Source: Nitrospira japonica | Lineage (GTDB): Bacteria > Nitrospirota > Nitrospiria > Nitrospirales > Nitrospiraceae | Assembly: GCF_900169565.1 (NCBI RefSeq) | Contig: NZ_LT828648.1 | Location: 1,676,876-1,740,875, forward strand | Direction of reading: 5' to 3' | Length of the DNA: 64,000 bases | In this document: in pieces, positions 840 to 7,253 of the stretch | How the letters are laid out: every line of letters starts with the position of its first letter | Position numbering within the stretch: position 1 is the first letter of the stretch | Made by a program: the position numbers and the translations under genes | The notes under the pieces: model-generated | Seen by the model: the letters and a program-made list of their open reading frames with translations, nothing else | What the model was told of the DNA's origin: nothing | Databases searched by the model: none

Positions 840-1427
840 GTGCGTCAGGCCCGGGGGCGCGGGAAGCTGCGATATGCGTGTGTCGTCTGGCTCTGGATCG
901 TCGGGGTCGGTTCGCTTGGATGGGCCGGCGAGTTCAGGCTCGAATCGTTGGCGGTGAGAGGGGGGTTCAGCGGCATCTCGCCCCTCGAAGAGGAGCAGAA
1001 GTATTACTTTCGGCAGGCCGATCTCGTGCTTACAGCGCGACTTCCCTGGGAGCGGGATCTCGGGACGGACTGGGTTCTGGGGACTAAACTGCTGACTTCA
1101 GGCGGAGTGCTCAATGCGGCCCAAGAGACCAATGGAATTTTTACATTGGTGCCGTTGGATGTCCTGATCGGCAGGAAGGACGGACTGTTGTCCTTTGACA
1201 TGGGTATCGGTGGCGCATTGCTTACCGATCACAAGTATGGCGTGCAGAATTTCGGCGGTGCATTTCAATTTGTCTGGACCTTTGGCGTGACCAGCCGCTT
1301 CCTCGGACCGCTTGGACTCGGGTATCATTTTCAGCACTACTCCGACGCGACCCTCTACGGTTCTCATTCACGTGGAGGCGACTTCCACCTCTTCGAACTG
1401 ATTTATTGGTTCAAGACCGGCAGGTAG
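840..1427 (+). CDS. PagL-like lipid A 3-O-deacylase (acyloxyacyl hydrolase family)
   Basis: A 195-aa outer-membrane beta-barrel candidate. It has a GTG start behind a purine-rich gagagg, and a signal peptide at about residues 8-30 ending in W-A-G. The C-terminal H-Y-S-D-A motif corresponds to the PagL catalytic H-x-S-N-A, and a later Glu in H-L-F-E-L could complete the His-Ser-Glu triad. PagL enzymes remove the 3-O acyl chain from lipid A in the outer membrane. The S-D instead of S-N variation and the alternating hydrophobic strands fit the family, but assignment rests on the short C-terminal motif. It stands alone between ychF and the convergent mutasome operon. Confidence 0.7.
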   Translation: MRQARGRGKLRYACVVWLWIVGVGSLGWAGEFRLESLAVRGGFSGISPLEEEQKYYFRQADLVLTARLPWERDLGTDWVLGTKLLTSGGVLNAAQETNGIFTLVPLDVLIGRKDGLLSFDMGIGGALLTDHKYGVQNFGGAFQFVWTFGVTSRFLGPLGLGYHFQHYSDATLYGSHSRGGDFHLFELIYWFKTGR

Positions 1428-1532
1428 GATTCGCACCCCGGTTCACCAACAGTTAGTTCGGCCCTCAAGACAAGGCGCAGCGTTGCGCTCTCGAGTTGTG
1501 AAAAGCCCGTCTATGGCTCCGGTTGACATGGG

Positions 1533-2177
1533 CTAGGCTGCCTGGTTGCGTACGAATCGTCCGATGCGTCGAAGATCCTCGACCAAGCGACCAAATGCTT
1601 CACTGCGCGCGGCTGCGTCCGGATATCGGAGAATCGCCGAGGGGTGGATCGTCACAAATACGTGGGTTGCCAGTGCGGTATCCCACGGCCGACCTCTTAA
1701 CTCGCTCAGTCGGACCGTCTTGGCGAATACCGATTGCGCGGCCGTGACACCGAGGCAAACGAGTGCATGCGGCTTCAACACCGAGACCTCTGCCTGCAGC
1801 CAGGGCCGGCATGCAGCCACTTCGGCGGCCGACGGCCGCTTGTGTTTGCGCTTCTTGCCTTGCGGTTCCCATTTGAAATGTTTGACGGCATTGGTGACGT
1901 ACACCTTGTCGCGTGCAATGCCCGCTTCGGCCAGGGCCCGATTCAACAGGGCTCCAGCCGGTCCGACGAAGGGCCGTCCCATCCGGTCTTCTTGATCGCC
2001 CGGTTGTTCGCCGACGAACACGATTGAGGGATGGCGTGGTCCCTCTCCGAAGACTGTTTGCGTGGCGGTCCGATAGAGATCGCAGCCGGTGCAGCAGGCC
2101 GCCGCACGCCGGAGAGCGGGAGGAGTCAGTCTTGGGGGAATGAACGAAGCGGCGGATTGGAAAGGATGCAGTTTCAC
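1533..2177 (-). CDS. udgX: UdgX-type uracil-DNA glycosylase
   Basis: A 214-aa member of the family 4-like Fe-S uracil-DNA glycosylases. Motif G-E-Q-P-G-D-Q (56-62) and H-P-S-A-I-L-R near the end are the two glycosylase motifs. The insert K-K-R-K-H (108-112) followed by K-R-P-S is the UdgX signature loop (K-R-R-I-H in mycobacteria), whose His forms a covalent bond to the abasic site after uracil release. C29/C32 and C123/C141 are candidate cluster ligands. The start is GTG, overlapping the dnaE2 stop as GTGA, so it is translationally coupled as the last gene of imuB-dnaE2-udgX. Expected role: capture or protection of uracil/AP sites during error-prone synthesis. Confidence 0.9.
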   Translation of the reverse strand: MKLHPFQSAASFIPPRLTPPALRRAAACCTGCDLYRTATQTVFGEGPRHPSIVFVGEQPGDQEDRMGRPFVGPAGALLNRALAEAGIARDKVYVTNAVKHFKWEPQGKKRKHKRPSAAEVAACRPWLQAEVSVLKPHALVCLGVTAAQSVFAKTVRLSELRGRPWDTALATHVFVTIHPSAILRYPDAAARSEAFGRLVEDLRRIGRFVRNQAA

Positions 2178-5100
2178 AAACCATCATACCATGGCTCGGA
2201 GGACAGCGATGGGGAGGACTCGTCTTTCGATACGCGATCGAGAAAACGTAGGTCCGAAACCGTGATGGTCAGGGCACCGAAGGAGCTTTCCACCACCCCG
2301 CATACCACATATGGCCGTCTGGACGACAGAAGTCGATGGCAGCGCCGGTAGACGTCCGGAAACAGGGTCGCATCATAGAGGGCGGTGGTGTCTTCCAGAG
2401 TGATAAATTCCATTGGAAGGCCGTCTTTGGTTTCTACCGGCTTTTCCGTGACGAGCCATCCCACCATGGTGATGTGGCGTCCGATGAACCGACCCATTTG
2501 TGAAGCCGGCACCGGCCGCACTCGCTCAATCTGATTCCGATACTGTGTCAGAGGATGGCGGGTCGCCAAAAAACCGAACGATTCGATCTCATGGGCCAAT
2601 GTCTGTTTGGGAGCGTAGTCATCGGGTATCGGCAACGGATCGGGCTCGGAAGTGCCCGCGTAGAGCCGCCAGAGCAGGGCCGGACGGGTCAATTCGCCGG
2701 CGATGGAATCGCAGCAGCCTGCGCGAACGAGCGCTCGAGCCTGCTCCGTGTCGGGGTTGATGCGCTGGAGAAAATCCCGAAAGGAGCGATACGGACCGTG
2801 AGCCGTCCGCTCCTTGACGATTCGGACGCAGAACTCTTCCGGCAGTGTCTTGACCTGCATCAGCCCCATGCGCAGCCGCTCACCTTCTCCCCGGTAGGCC
2901 CAGTCGCTGGCATTCACATCCGGAAGGAGGATCGCCAATCCCATTCGGCGTGCCTCGGAAAGATACGCGAGCGTCGAATAGAACCCGCCGTGATTACTGA
3001 TGACGGCCGCCATGAATTCCGCCGGATAATGGGCACGAAGATAGGCTGACTTGAATGAGACCTGCGCATAGCTGGCTGAGTGAGGTTTGCAGAAGCTGTA
3101 GCCGGCGAAGCTCATGATCATCGCCCAAATCTTCCCGACCACTTCCGGCGAGGCTCCGTTGCCCGCCGCGCCAAAGCAAAATTGCCGATAATAGTCTTGC
3201 AATTGCCGCCGCTTGTGCTTTTTGCTGATGATCTTGCGGAGGTGATCCGCATCTTCCACGGAAAACCCGGCCAGAGCCATCGCCACCTTCGTGACGTCCT
3301 CCTGGTACACCATGATGCCGAACGTCTCGCGCAGGATGGGTTCGATCAGCCGGTGCAACGGTTCGTAGGGTTCTCCGTGGGCGCGTCGGACAAATTCATG
3401 GACGAAGGTGATGGCGGCCGGTCTGACGAGCGACGACACGATGACCAGGTAGTCGAACACGTCGGGGGTCGGCTGCCGGTCCGGCGGCATGCCGAGCCAG
3501 AGTTTTTTCAATAGCAGCCTCGTGGCCGGCGATTCGATGTAGAAGCACCCGATCGTATCGCCTCGTTTGATGAGATCTTGCGTGGCCCGGTCGTGCAAGG
3601 GATCCCAGGCCGCGTAGTCGATGTGGCGGCCCGTATGACGCGCGACGGCCTCCAGCGCATCGCGGATGACGGCCAGCGAACGGTTCCCCAGGATGTCGAT
3701 TTTGACCAGACCCGCTTCTTCCGCCTGATCTTTTTCCCATTGAATAACCGGCCGGTTTTTGACCGTCCGTTCGATGGGCACATACCGTCTGACGTCATCG
3801 GGCGTGATCACCACGCCTCCGCAGTGCAGGGAGAGATGGCGGAAATGATTCTGTGCCCGCAGTGCCTGCCTCAAAATTTCAGGCCACGGGGCATTCAGGC
3901 CGAGGGCCGTTACGATCGCACGGAGCCACTGCGCGCCGGTTGGGGCATCAACGAAGGTCTGTTCACGAATGATGCGGGAGGTTACGGTCGAAATGTCCCC
4001 GGCCGGCATGCCGTAGACTTTCGCGGTTTCGCGGATGGCGGCGCGGAGGCCGAGATGGTTTTGGTTTGCGACCATTGCCGCCCGCCCGGCGTACTGCGTG
4101 AAGATTGTCTCGAATACCGCCTCGCGTTCATCCCAAGGAAAATCGATGTCGATATCGGGTGGATCGGTGCGGCCCGGATTCAAAAACCGCTCGAAGAACA
4201 GATTGTGCTTGAGCGGGTCCACGTGCGTGATCTTCAGGCAGTAGGACACGATTGACGCCGCCACCGAGCCGCGGCCGCACGTTTCGGATGTTCCGACGAG
4301 TTCGTGCACCACCAGAAAATAACGAGCGAAGCGTTTCTGCCGGATGATCCCGAGCTCTTTTTCAATGCGCTCCCGGATCTCCGGCGAGAGCGCGCCATAT
4401 CGTTCGGACGCACCCGCATAGGTGCGCAGGCGAAGGGTGTCGAATGCCTCGTCGTCCTTGAGGCTTCCGAAGGAAGGCGCGGCGACGTCGTGAACGGCCC
4501 ACTTGCTGTGACAGGACTCGGCGATCCGGACCGTATTGTCCAGCGCCGCCGGCGCATGGGGGAAGTGCAAGGCCATCCGAGCAGGCGGCATCAGCCATTG
4601 AGACGGTCCGCAGCAGGCTTCGGCTGGCAATCGCGACAGCGTGGTGTTGAGGGCGACCGCGCGCAGCAGACGGTGTGTGCCGTAGGCGTCCGGGCGTGCA
4701 AAATACACCCGGTTGGTGGCGACCGGCGGCAGCCCGCTGCGGCGGCTGAACTGCAACGTTCCGTACATGGCGGGACCGGGCGTCAATTCCACATAGAGAT
4801 CGCGAGTGGATTGCGTAGCCCACGCGGAAAGGGCCGCCTCGTCGTCGGTGAAAATGATCAAGCCCTGGCGATGGCGGGCCACGGCGGAAAGAACATCGAA
4901 TGGCCGATCGCCGTGCCGTTCGGACAATAGACGACAGAGATTGGCATAGCCCTCCGGTGTTTTGACCAGCAGCACGGCGCGGTGGCCGGCGGTCGTCAGT
5001 TCGGCGCCGAGAATGGGCCGCAGTCCCCGCTGCAGGGCGAGATCAATAAATCGGATGGCACCGTAGAGCCCGTTGGTATCGGTCAATGCCAGACAGGAGA

Positions 5101-5206
5101 GGCCTTGTTGCTGCGTTACGGCACACAACTCGTCGAGGGGAGATACGCCGCGCATGGGCGAGTAACTCGAATGGACATGAAGATGAACGAACGGAGGAGG
5201 CGTCAT
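2174..5206 (-). CDS. dnaE2: Error-prone DNA polymerase III alpha-type subunit (DnaE2/ImuC-like)
   Basis: A 1010-aa C-family polymerase. Order: N-terminal PHP domain (H-L-H-V-H-S-S-Y-S at 8-16), the catalytic palm with P-D-I-D-I-D-F near residue 350 and the third Asp in K-I-D-I-L-G-N, helix-hairpin-helix region, then a C-terminal OB fold. It is shorter than replicative DnaE, as expected for DnaE2. The ATG at 5206 overlaps the imuB TGA (ATGA). An upstream in-frame start at 5311 would lie wholly inside imuB and is rejected. Its partners are the Y-family pseudo-polymerase ImuB upstream and UdgX downstream. The family performs translesion synthesis and damage-induced mutagenesis. Confidence 0.9.
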   Translation of the reverse strand: MTPPPFVHLHVHSSYSPMRGVSPLDELCAVTQQQGLSCLALTDTNGLYGAIRFIDLALQRGLRPILGAELTTAGHRAVLLVKTPEGYANLCRLLSERHGDRPFDVLSAVARHRQGLIIFTDDEAALSAWATQSTRDLYVELTPGPAMYGTLQFSRRSGLPPVATNRVYFARPDAYGTHRLLRAVALNTTLSRLPAEACCGPSQWLMPPARMALHFPHAPAALDNTVRIAESCHSKWAVHDVAAPSFGSLKDDEAFDTLRLRTYAGASERYGALSPEIRERIEKELGIIRQKRFARYFLVVHELVGTSETCGRGSVAASIVSYCLKITHVDPLKHNLFFERFLNPGRTDPPDIDIDFPWDEREAVFETIFTQYAGRAAMVANQNHLGLRAAIRETAKVYGMPAGDISTVTSRIIREQTFVDAPTGAQWLRAIVTALGLNAPWPEILRQALRAQNHFRHLSLHCGGVVITPDDVRRYVPIERTVKNRPVIQWEKDQAEEAGLVKIDILGNRSLAVIRDALEAVARHTGRHIDYAAWDPLHDRATQDLIKRGDTIGCFYIESPATRLLLKKLWLGMPPDRQPTPDVFDYLVIVSSLVRPAAITFVHEFVRRAHGEPYEPLHRLIEPILRETFGIMVYQEDVTKVAMALAGFSVEDADHLRKIISKKHKRRQLQDYYRQFCFGAAGNGASPEVVGKIWAMIMSFAGYSFCKPHSASYAQVSFKSAYLRAHYPAEFMAAVISNHGGFYSTLAYLSEARRMGLAILLPDVNASDWAYRGEGERLRMGLMQVKTLPEEFCVRIVKERTAHGPYRSFRDFLQRINPDTEQARALVRAGCCDSIAGELTRPALLWRLYAGTSEPDPLPIPDDYAPKQTLAHEIESFGFLATRHPLTQYRNQIERVRPVPASQMGRFIGRHITMVGWLVTEKPVETKDGLPMEFITLEDTTALYDATLFPDVYRRCHRLLSSRRPYVVCGVVESSFGALTITVSDLRFLDRVSKDESSPSLSSEPWYDGL

Positions 5207-6396
5207 GGCCTGACCGCACCCCAAGAAACGGCTTGCACGCCGAACTTGGCGCGGATCCGGTCCACAGCCAGAGAGAGACGCTGGTGCACCGGCGGCGTCG
5301 AGGCCGGCCATGTTTCGAACAGTTCAAGCTGGTCGATCGGAGACTCCAATTGATCGACCTGAAGCGTGACGTGTTGCAGCCGGACGCGTCGCCGGAAGCA
5401 CCGGATGAACAGACGTCTGAGGACCGGCTGGAGATCGGCCTCCCAACAGGTCGCATGGTGAAGCCGTTGTTGGGCGAGCTGGTGCTGGTGATCGCTGTGT
5501 CGAACGAGGAGCTGCAGGCGCCGGCAGACTCGCCCTTGCTGCCGAAGAGTCGCGCAGAGATTCTCCAAGAGGACATATAAACGTTTCAGCAGCCTGTCGT
5601 CATCGATCTCATCGGGATTCAGTCCGAGCGACTGTTCGATTGCCGGTTGATCGGCCGGAGAACGCACAGGGGACGGATCGACTCCCGATGCCCAATCATG
5701 CAGCCACGTGGCCGCAGCGCCGAAAGCCGATTGCAGGTGAACCAGCGGTACGGATGAAACGGCTCCCATGGTCTTCAGATTCAAGTCTTCCAGCCGTTGC
5801 AGAATGTGTGACGCGCGCACGTGCCGCGCGTGATGCTGGAGGCCTGGAAGCCATGCGGCCGGCAAGGGGGCGAGAAACGATTGTTCCGAGCCGGCTTGAA
5901 TGGAGAGTATGTGCGGTGATGCGGTGAGAGAGGTCGCCGCCAGCTGCGAAACCAGCTTGCTGCCTGCCAGTCCGATGACAGTCTGTAATCCTTGCTGCCG
6001 GGTCAATGCCCGCCCGAGGCGGGAAACCGTATCGATGGGAGGGCCGAAGCAGCGAGCCGTTCCGGTGAGATCCAGGAACAGGGCTCCGAGTCCGATCGAT
6101 TCCCACGCCGGCGCGAACGGCAGAACGGTTCGTTGCACGGAGCGATGAGCCGCCCGCATTGACGGCAAGTCCGGCGGAATGAGCCGTAGGTTTGGACAGA
6201 GACGCCGGGCCAACTCGATTGGGATGCCGGGCCTCACGCCTTCCTGCATCGCTTCGCGAGAGGCTTCAAGGACCAAGGCGCGTGGAGTATGAAGAGGGGC
6301 CAGCACGACAGGACGGTTCCGCAGCACTGGGTCAGTGGCTTGGGCGAGGGCAATCCCAAAACATGGGATCTGCACGTAGGCGATATGGCGATCCAT
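5203..6396 (-). CDS. imuB: ImuB-like catalytically inactive Y-family polymerase, mutasome adaptor
   Basis: A 397-aa protein with DinB/UmuC-fold organisation. Catalytic carboxylates are missing: the first-strand D-M-D of active enzymes reads V-Q-I-P (8-11), and the S-I-D-E motif is S-I-G-L-G-A (100-105) before the retained F-L-D-L-T-G. This is the hallmark of ImuB. A clamp-binding type motif Q-L-E-L-F lies at 356-360. ImuB links DnaE2 to the beta clamp in other bacteria. The start is ATG at 6396, with a GTG immediately upstream at 6399; no clear Shine-Dalgarno is seen. It is the first gene of the operon, behind a promoter overlapped by a palindrome. No imuA is found beside it. Confidence 0.88.
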   Translation of the reverse strand: MDRHIAYVQIPCFGIALAQATDPVLRNRPVVLAPLHTPRALVLEASREAMQEGVRPGIPIELARRLCPNLRLIPPDLPSMRAAHRSVQRTVLPFAPAWESIGLGALFLDLTGTARCFGPPIDTVSRLGRALTRQQGLQTVIGLAGSKLVSQLAATSLTASPHILSIQAGSEQSFLAPLPAAWLPGLQHHARHVRASHILQRLEDLNLKTMGAVSSVPLVHLQSAFGAAATWLHDWASGVDPSPVRSPADQPAIEQSLGLNPDEIDDDRLLKRLYVLLENLCATLRQQGRVCRRLQLLVRHSDHQHQLAQQRLHHATCWEADLQPVLRRLFIRCFRRRVRLQHVTLQVDQLESPIDQLELFETWPASTPPVHQRLSLAVDRIRAKFGVQAVSWGAVRP

Positions 6397-6410
6397 CACA
6401 AGCGTGCTCG

Positions 6411-6426
6411 ATTGGAAGTATCCAAT
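6411..6426. promoter_or_regulatory. Perfect palindrome, candidate repressor operator of the imuB operon
   Basis: attgga-agta-tccaat: perfect 6-bp arms around a 4-bp spacer, ending 14 bp before the imuB ATG and overlapping the end of the predicted -10 and the start-site region. This is the expected place for a repressor. It does not match the E. coli (CTGT-N8-ACAG) or Bacillus (GAAC-N4-GTTC) LexA boxes. Identification as a LexA-type site is inference from the operon's role. Confidence 0.5.
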
Positions 6427-6454
6427 GGTTACAAATGAAGATGCCCGATGTCAA
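6425..6454 (-). promoter_or_regulatory. Predicted sigma70 promoter of imuB-dnaE2-udgX
   Basis: On the minus strand a consensus TTGACA (6454-6449) is followed after 17-18 nt by TAACCA/AACCAT (6431-6425). The -10 is weak, consistent with a regulated promoter, and abuts the palindrome at 6411-6426. Confidence 0.45.
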
Positions 6455-6638
6455 TCATGCGGTGAGGCCGATGGCAACGGCGATTTGTATGCGGACTCAC
6501 GCGTGCGTCATGAGTGATGGAGAACAGAATGTTGATGAGGGGTCATAAGAAAGCGTGAAAGAGCAATGCATGATTGGCAGCGTGCCATGCTCCCATTTTT
6601 GCTATATGTGTGGGTGCATGGTAGCTTCCGCGCGTACG

Positions 6639-7253
6639 ATGAATCTGGTCGAGCGAGCAAAAAACATCGTGTGTCAGCCTGAGGCCGAATGGCCGGTGAT
6701 CGAACCGGAGCAGATCTCCGCACAGGTGCTCTACACCGGATACATCATGCCGCTGGCCGCAATCGGGCCAGTTGCGATGCTGATCGGCATGTCCCTCATC
6801 GGCCTAGAGATCCCCTCCATTGGAACCGTGCGGATACCGCTTCCAACCTTGGTTCCCCAGGTGATGGTCGGCTACGGATTGGGATTGGCAGCTGTGTATG
6901 TGCTCGCTCTGATCATCGATGCGCTGGCGCCGACTTTCGGTGGCAAGAGAGATCGAATGCAGGCATTGAAGGTCGCGGCGTATGGCGCGACGGCTTCCTG
7001 GGTCGGCGGGATCTTTCATCTCGTGCCCGCGTTGGGCATCTTGGGGCTGTTGGCGGGATGCTATACGCTCTATCTATTTTCTTTGGGGCTGCCAGTCCTC
7101 ATGAAGTCTCCGCCCGAGCGGTCTCTCGGCTATGCAATGGCGATCATGGTCGCCGCGATAGTACTGACCGCCGTCGTTGGGATACTCAGCGCCGTATTCG
7201 TGGAATTTCCGGCTCCTGGAGGTTCGATGTCGTCGGACCCGGTGTCGCCATAA
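6639..7253 (+). CDS. Yip1-family integral membrane protein
   Basis: A 204-aa protein of the bacterial Yip1/YIP1 domain family, beginning M-N-L-V-E-R-A-K-N-I and containing the typical E-W-P-V-I stretch before the first membrane span. Hydrophobic segments at roughly 35-55, 75-100, 120-140, 145-165 and 175-195 suggest five spans. Function of these proteins in bacteria is not established. ATG 6639 is chosen from family similarity; longer starts at 6618 and 6555 are open and no good ribosome site distinguishes them. The gene is monocistronic, 160 bp before the rpsF start. Confidence 0.75.
   Translation: MNLVERAKNIVCQPEAEWPVIEPEQISAQVLYTGYIMPLAAIGPVAMLIGMSLIGLEIPSIGTVRIPLPTLVPQVMVGYGLGLAAVYVLALIIDALAPTFGGKRDRMQALKVAAYGATASWVGGIFHLVPALGILGLLAGCYTLYLFSLGLPVLMKSPPERSLGYAMAIMVAAIVLTAVVGILSAVFVEFPAPGGSMSSDPVSP

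Follow-up and report, generated by a model that had tools for sequence, protein, structure and literature searches.

UdgX in a predicted damage-inducible, ImuA-free DnaE2 operon of Nitrospira japonica and in other mutasome cassettes

The window analysed here is a stretch of 64,000 nucleotides from Nitrospira japonica (contig NZ_LT828648.1, positions 1,676,876 to 1,740,875), whose genome is a single contig of 4,084,817 bases and is 99.96% complete. The minus strand of the window carries a run of three genes encoding a Y-family protein, then DnaE2 and then the uracil-DNA glycosylase (UDG) UdgX. The first gene (5203..6396) specifies an inactive Y-family protein of 397 residues, iPolY, with a clamp motif (QLELF) and a C-terminal motif resembling the RecA N-terminus (RecA-NT). 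Its start is placed at 6396, an alternative GTG start at 6399 being possible. The open reading frame of the second gene, dnaE2 (2174..5206), opens at 5311, with a likely start at 5206, because Met36 of this frame precedes the conserved beginning of the PHP domain and gives an ATGA overlap with iPolY. The third gene, udgX (1533..2177), encodes 214 residues with motif A (GEQPG), an R-loop (KKRKH) containing His 112, and motif B (HPSAILR). Upstream of iPolY, at 6417..6433 on the same strand, lies a putative operator, TGTAACCATTGGATACT, which is a copy with two mismatches of the palindrome TGTAACCATnGGTTACA and stands 3' of a TTGACA box. The original prediction described an imuB-dnaE2-udgX operon joined by 4-nucleotide overlaps. 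Both overlaps are present where it had placed them (ATGA at 5206-5203, if DnaE2 starts at Met36, and GTGA at 2177-2174), and family models identify dnaE2 and udgX, but the name imuB is not confirmed, as the first protein has no ImuB-C domain.

The window UdgX scores 263.5 bits with the NCBIfam model TIGR03914 (cut-off 189.95) and matches the structures of Mycobacterium smegmatis UdgX (PDB 6ajo, 6ail and 6iod). The two proteins have in common motif A, the Glu/Gln positions, the Arg and His of the R-loop, and motif B. The Gln of GEQPG, Arg 110 and His 112, the last at the position of the nucleophile, are all kept, and motif B departs from the pattern HPS(S/A)(L/V)(L/V)R by a single conservative change (Ile for Leu/Val). 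They differ in the loop, which is two residues shorter in the window protein and reads KKRKH instead of KRRIH, with Arg and His retained and Lys in place of the Ile before the His. This Lys (residue 111, window 1845-1847) is shared by the linked rows of L033-L044 (L and G numbers are our labels for loci and genomes). Among Nitrospiraceae UdgX proteins with a readable loop, Lys precedes His in the clade linked to dnaE2, and Arg does so in G034 and G044.

The coupling of udgX to dnaE2, which the original prediction would have abandoned if confined to this genome, is found well beyond it. UdgX is present above cut-off in 16 of 175 Nitrospiraceae genomes, and in 11 of these 16 udgX is the next gene 3' of dnaE2, with the same orientation; among these 11, the dnaE2 of G103 has a frameshift and that of G105 is cut off by the contig end. 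In G030 and G104, UdgX adjoins remnants of iPolY and dnaE2, and the G104 protein lacks its first 32 residues; the UdgX of G107 is an orphan whose frame contains a stop, and the UdgX of G034 and G044 is distant (50% identity) and encoded apart from DnaE2. Trees that were computed quickly have many weak branches; L047 and L049 were left out of the UdgX tree, and L041, L043, L045, L046 and L047, which retain too little DnaE2, out of the DnaE2 tree. The linked UdgX proteins form one clade of 13 rows, including the G107 orphan (SH-aLRT support 99). A DnaE2 clade, hereafter clade I, comprises 33 rows, 11 of them with UdgX and distributed on both sides of the clade. For 10 taxa, UdgX and DnaE2 distances are strongly correlated (Mantel r 0.91, none of 9999 permutations as high), which points to co-evolution, and udgX differences at the three codon positions (0.21/0.16/0.54) are as under purifying selection. 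Remnants of udgX are also detected 3' of dnaE2 in L049 and L067. The simplest reading of these patterns would be a single gain of udgX before the clade I split, followed by many losses.

The original prediction is also supported by a conserved damage-type operator that udgX has in common with the polymerase cassette. The palindrome TGTAACCATnGGTTACA precedes iPolY in all 28 testable clade I cassettes (5 of the 33 loci had no testable upstream region) and at both basal loci, while a reversed palindrome pattern was never found before these cassettes. TTGAC stands 14-15 nucleotides upstream of the operator in 31 of 32 loci. In the window genome the operator TGTAACCATTGGATACT corresponds to G000:C1:1683292-1683308, and a perfect copy of the palindrome precedes a distant gene (G000:C1:2711371-2711923; L174, L185), whose product is the sole LexA-family match (TIGR00498) in the genome. 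This putative repressor combines an XRE-type helix-turn-helix (HTH_3) with a Peptidase_S24 domain, and it carries a Ser (GESM), a Lys (EATIK) and an AG site, which we take to be the self-cleavage residues. Thus, as in a LexA-type SOS cassette, a repressor of self-cleaving type and the cassette have a common operator. When the whole genome was scanned, matches with at most two mismatches were found at two places only, before the repressor gene and before iPolY; six further places matched with three mismatches, and the reversed control gave eight matches with at most three.

A second group of cassettes (clade II; L070-L087 except L076 and L078) has the order XRE-S24 repressor, iPolY, dnaE2, with an operator of variable sequence, and some genomes hold a clade II cassette alongside a clade I cassette. 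At all 16 clade II loci the repressor gene (56-67% identity) lies directly upstream of iPolY, and the DnaE2 of these loci shows about 60% identity. The palindrome TGTAACCATnGGTTACA is found directly before iPolY at none of the 16 loci. A palindrome of the type TGTnnC-GnnACA instead precedes the start of the repressor gene, by 16-17 nucleotides at 15 loci and by 83 at one, and differs from the clade I sequence at five positions in L081 and L084. As all clade II loci have the repressor gene before iPolY, the clade I operator is probably the footprint of such a repressor-iPolY-dnaE2 cassette whose repressor gene moved away.

To which type of mutasome does the operon belong? The dnaE2 product has a DNA polymerase III alpha core with PHP and HHH domains, and keeps the polymerase Asp residues (DIDIDF and KIDILG when aligned to Escherichia coli DnaE). 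In a tree of 21 rows, which has several long branches and took in no author-labelled DnaE2B sequence, it groups with proteins of Desulfosarcina, Emticicia and Nannocystis (98/97), and the ImuA/ImuB-linked rows are separate from this group (100/100). The Desulfosarcina cassette consists of lexA, DUF72, iPolY and DnaE2; in Desulfosarcina ovata (L192) it lies on a mobilizable plasmid, where iPolY is annotated merely as a hypothetical protein. The window iPolY matches the IMS/IMS_C families (IMS 90.4 bits), and the positions that we take for metal ligands in Pol IV are occupied by Q, G and A, indicating an inactive polymerase core. Residues 373-390 (RLSLAVDRIRAKFGVQAV) resemble the N-terminus of RecA, a similarity equalled by 1 of 500 shuffles, and the protein ends right after this motif, whereas its counterparts in L184, L114 and L120 continue into ImuB-C.

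Three ImuB-C queries, which recovered six of six positive-control loci, did not find ImuB-C in the window (best match 27 residues long, E 0.033) or in 55 Nitrospiraceae loci (nothing better than E 0.069). PF20114, which we take to be the ImuB-C family, has matches in Caulobacter and none in the window genome, but the same model also fails to detect the ImuB-C of L184 and L114. By domain content, the first gene is not the imuB of the original prediction: it lacks both ImuB-C and an ImuA partner, and only the inactive Y-family core fits. The stated absence of ImuA from the window can be extended to the complete 4.08-Mb genome, in which the sole match of our ImuA profile A2 is RecA (57.6 bits; in three genomes that contributed their ImuA to the profile, ImuA scores 236-305 bits). 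Nothing above 64 bits was found with this profile in any of 13 Nitrospiraceae genomes tested. Profile A2 can miss divergent ImuA, as it found none in G392 (L120), whose ImuA lies outside the profile and where tblastn detects an ImuA-like stretch (L120:5737-6297, 34% identity). The ImuA model NF033429 had no match above cut-off in 172 genomes of the family, nor in any of 14 controls, which makes its negative result uninformative.

The operon thus appears to fit the DnaE2B-iPolY-RecA type of Timinskas and Venclovas, the DnaE2X type being also possible; in both, ImuA is expected to be missing (PMC12926913; papers are cited here by PMC number). In common with these published modules (PMC6511836, PMC12926913), the window operon has an inactive Y-family protein with a RecA-NT motif and without ImuB-C, a DnaE2 outside the ImuA/ImuB-linked group, and no ImuA. 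It differs from them by UdgX as its third gene and by the XRE-S24 operator. UdgX is the new element relative to published ImuA-free systems, and the main text of PMC12926913 contains none of the terms uracil, UDG and glycosylase. With the lexA-imuA-imuB-dnaE2 SOS cassette, the operon has in common a self-cleaving-type repressor, an inactive Y-family protein and DnaE2, but it lacks ImuA and ImuB-C, and its repressor is of XRE helix-turn-helix type and encoded elsewhere. The lexA-imuY-imuBCt-dnaE2 operon of Deinococcus is also a LexA-controlled cassette without ImuA, but has a separate ImuB-C gene, and UdgX is unmentioned in the available text (PMC9510100).

In support of the original prediction, UdgX is also found in or beside mutasome cassettes outside the Nitrospiraceae, other phyla included, in varied gene orders and mostly together with ImuA: in Manganitrophaceae, relatives of Opitutaceae, Alphaproteobacteria, an acidobacterium and Nannocystis. 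In G314 (L184), a genome of the same class as that of the window, udgX, lexA, imuA, imuB with ImuB-C, and dnaE2 follow one another in one direction, and its DnaE2 is sister to that of Candidatus Manganitrophus (Nitrospirota), one plasmid of which (L168) has the same gene order in broken form. In the plasmid records of Manganitrophus GAC2, lexA-imuA-imuB-dnaE2 stands at the end of CP114558 (L196) and udgX at the start of CP114559 (L169), the two ends facing each other as if they were halves of one broken cassette. UdgX is present in 1 of 18 genomes of the G314 order and 1 of 6 of its family (G314 itself in both cases), and in 9 of a sample of 295 Nitrospirota genomes. The control genome of Caulobacter vibrioides also scores above the UdgX cut-off. 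Of 223 genomes in the order to which Rariglobus (Opitutaceae) belongs, 6 have UdgX; in 2 of these 6, lexA, imuA, imuB, dnaE2 and udgX are consecutive (L203, which is the same as L114, and L200); in the order of G391, 4 of 6 UdgX loci have no mutasome gene. UdgX thus joins the LexA-type cassette in L184, L203 and L200.

Among named genomes, we inspected 80 UdgX loci, which are the best query matches out of more than 570 rather than a random sample. Clear mutasome genes lie within 8 kb at 14 of them: L120, L099, L106, Rariglobus (L114) and ten Bradyrhizobium loci; L109 was added to these. In the alphaproteobacterial L120, udgX lies between imuB and dnaE2, with an ATGA overlap with dnaE2; in the acidobacterial L099 it is divergent from imuA-imuB, dnaE2 not being found nearby; and in Nannocystis (L106) it is oriented divergently to a gene for a DnaE2-like protein that falls on a long branch. 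L112 and L126, with partial LexA- or ImuA-like matches only, were left out of the count, and UdgX has no mutasome gene in two annotated regions of rhizobial plasmids, one of which has a radical-SAM gene. At least eight changes of the linked state (seven if Bradyrhizobium is left aside) have to be assumed on the UdgX tree; this count is an upper bound, since loci on short contigs are included among the unlinked. At least two recruitments of UdgX to mutasomes are needed, as UdgX-linked DnaE2 proteins fall in both major DnaE2 branches.

Regulatory sites near UdgX genes were also found outside Nitrospirota. At 10 of 10 Bradyrhizobium loci, the interval between imuA and the divergently oriented UdgX operon contains a single GTTC-N7-GTTC box. 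Of 26 alphaproteobacterial loci, four without a radical-SAM match were dropped, and 21 of the remaining 22 radical-SAM-UdgX loci have a LexA box 26-97 nucleotides upstream (0.14 expected); across the 26 loci, box density is 0.322 per kb near UdgX versus 0.032 elsewhere. Such boxes are present also where no imu gene was found nearby, including in Sphingomonas and rhizobia (L119-L167). Only 2 of 17 actinobacterial loci have a LexA box near UdgX, which gives no clear support there. In the Bradyrhizobium locus L121 the radical-SAM gene before UdgX matches TIGR03916, and a frame of 486 residues (L121:7128-8588) has UdgX as its C-terminal domain, its N-terminal part being presumably DUF4130-like. 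The known operon COG1573-COG4277, in which we take COG4277 to be the radical-SAM partner, is very likely the operon seen here. SOS regulation of COG1573-COG4277 was reported in Alphaproteobacteria and Verrucomicrobia, with Bacteroidetes added, and SOS-controlled UDGs were suggested to deal with misincorporation by error-prone polymerases (PMC8565304). SOS control of UDG operons is therefore not new in kind. The published operon resembles ours in having a LexA-controlled UDG, suggested to be a common SOS feature tied to error-prone polymerases; in the text available, it differs in that the name UdgX and covalent capture are missing and the UDG is not inside a DnaE2 operon. In the open literature we found no report of UdgX with dnaE2, the SOS response or LexA, the name UdgX missing PMC8565304, and the accessible parts of papers pairing UDG with imuB do not show a UDG inside a DnaE2 operon.

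These observations lead us to propose that the window operon serves damage-inducible, ImuA-free error-prone synthesis in which UdgX caps uracil-derived abasic (AP) sites covalently, an interpretation whose chances we consider to be about even. Damage would load RecA, and the XRE-S24 repressor bound to the operator before iPolY would then cleave itself, with relief of repression. iPolY, DnaE2 and UdgX would be made together from one message; a bridging role between sliding clamp, RecA and DnaE2 is predicted for iPolY, and DnaE2 would carry out the synthesis. UdgX would excise uracil and bond covalently to the resulting abasic site. While the SOS response lasts, capping of uracil and abasic sites that are exposed in damaged or single-stranded DNA would most likely keep them from being cut into breaks, and the capped sites would be left to RecA-dependent or error-prone resolution. 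UdgX is reported to bind covalently to its own product, AP protection and a RecA-dependent resolution of the adducts having been proposed by its discoverers (PMC10359453), and the AP-site shielding suggested in the original prediction is plausible and consistent with this. Covalent abasic-site capture during error-prone synthesis would be the likeliest role of UdgX. The sequence itself shows the operon, its conserved linkage, the common operator, the co-evolution and the retained active-site residues, whereas RecA binding, cleavage of the repressor, cross-linking by the window UdgX and the capping role are inferred. In a bacterium that grows on nitrite, uracil might well arise through deamination of cytosine by nitrous acid; we offer this as a suggestion.

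More broadly, UdgX is predicted to be a damage-induced enzyme that was recruited to mutasomes several times. It may even be an SOS-regulon enzyme recruited independently to both ImuA-type and RecA-type DnaE2 mutasomes, acting where these polymerases copy, so that abasic-site capture would be a standing arm of SOS mutagenesis deciding between break, bypass mutation and recombination; we advance this generalization only tentatively.

Several observations weigh against these proposals. Most cassettes and most UdgX genes examined are unlinked. In 22 of the 33 clade I rows there is no intact udgX, so the polymerase is retained without UdgX, and in G030 (L041) the UdgX frame is still open although only remnants of the polymerase genes are left, suggesting that UdgX may function independently of DnaE2; some of the broken genes may be due to frameshifts in draft genomes. 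A sigma-70 scan of window positions 1400-6600 gave no promoter-like site. Finally, the operator scan at up to two mismatches is not significant alone, about two chance matches being expected by estimate, and the operator claims rest on conservation.

The persistence of either partner without the other is what would be expected if UdgX were an SOS-induced base-excision or AP-protection gene that has its promoter in common with the polymerase by convenience, without acting at DnaE2 forks or affecting mutagenesis. The alphaproteobacterial LexA boxes before radical-SAM-UdgX without a nearby imu gene, and the SOS regulation published for a UDG operon of this kind (PMC8565304), speak for the same alternative. 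However, polymerase operons on both DnaE2 branches include UdgX, at varying places in the gene order, which exceeds the needs of shared regulation; moreover, the orphan UdgX of G107 is interrupted by a stop, and that of G104 lacks its first 32 residues. We regard independent repair as a serious but minority possibility.

Alternatively, UdgX could feed mutagenesis by turning deaminated cytosines into blocked abasic sites, DnaE2 bypass of which would yield transversions, as a natural counterpart of C-to-G base editors. Its position in the operon of an error-prone polymerase is compatible with this, and engineered C-to-G editors fuse UdgX and polymerases to a deaminase (PMC7925527). On the other hand, a detrimental effect of UdgX on C-to-G editing is cited in the same paper, and the covalent adduct may block bypass; such a function is unlikely.

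Still more doubtful is a loss of cross-linking in the Nitrospira proteins (KKRKH or KRRKH versus KRRIH), which would make UdgX a plain UDG removing uracil put in or exposed during DnaE2 synthesis. The Lys at the Ile108 position is confined, in the sets compared, to the linked Nitrospira clade. At all of the 82 other UdgX loci compared, I, L or M precedes the R-loop His, so that the Lys-loop variant need not cross-link, which also counts against the capping proposal. Mutants of UdgX H109 gain ordinary UDG activity (PMC10359453), and the suggested handling of polymerase misincorporation by SOS-controlled UDGs (PMC8565304) would agree with such a role. However, the positions that mark UdgX (His, Glu57, Gln58 and Arg110) are kept, and the window genome has a second, weaker match to the UDG model (119.6 bits, probably family 4). 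Lastly, the idea in the original prediction that UdgX replaces ImuA as a mutasome member, to which the lack of a detected ImuA and the third place of UdgX gave some appeal, is scarcely credible and we have discarded it: the operon fits ImuA-free DnaE2-iPolY systems already published (PMC6511836, PMC12926913), UdgX sits with ImuA in other cassettes (L184, L114/L203, L200 and Bradyrhizobium), iPolY and DnaE2 lack an adjoining UdgX at the 16 clade II loci, and UdgX is a glycosylase while ImuA is a relative of RecA.

UdgX serves as a probe in the laboratory and as a component of base editors, but its precise physiological role "remains largely unknown" (PMC10359453). To this, our analysis adds that the TIGR03914 UdgX is the enzyme of SOS-controlled UDG operons in the loci examined, that DnaE2 operons of two distinct mutasome types include it, and that a specific repressor and operator are predicted to control udgX in Nitrospira-type bacteria. 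A UdgX-polymerase partnership in several unrelated bacterial groups is a testable lead on the purpose of UdgX. Direct tests are now possible, namely of the damage induction of udgX and of the effect of its loss on breaks or on DnaE2 mutation spectra. For Bradyrhizobium diazoefficiens, a species outside the loci analysed here, UdgX activity was demonstrated (PMC10359453).

The operon is flanked on the plus strand by genes for a PagL-like protein (840-1427) and a Yip1-like protein (6555-7253). Genes for SRAP (SOS response-associated peptidase) lie near the DnaE2/PolY cassettes of L168, L193, L195 and L196; we take SRAP to capture AP sites, in agreement with the annotation "protein-DNA covalent cross-linking" met here. 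Searches found no SRAP match in the window genome, and SRAP/YedK is a protein unrelated to UdgX, although it too is encoded next to error-prone polymerases (PMC3765255). A UDG domain (PF03167) is also coupled to a C-family polymerase in the DnaEX-UDG fusion of some Yersinia pestis and Salmonella strains (PMC3919608), which differs in being a single fused chain. In phage matches H33-H36 and H41, similarity to family-4-like UDG falls under genes annotated as DNA polymerase, which is another coupling of polymerase and glycosylase.

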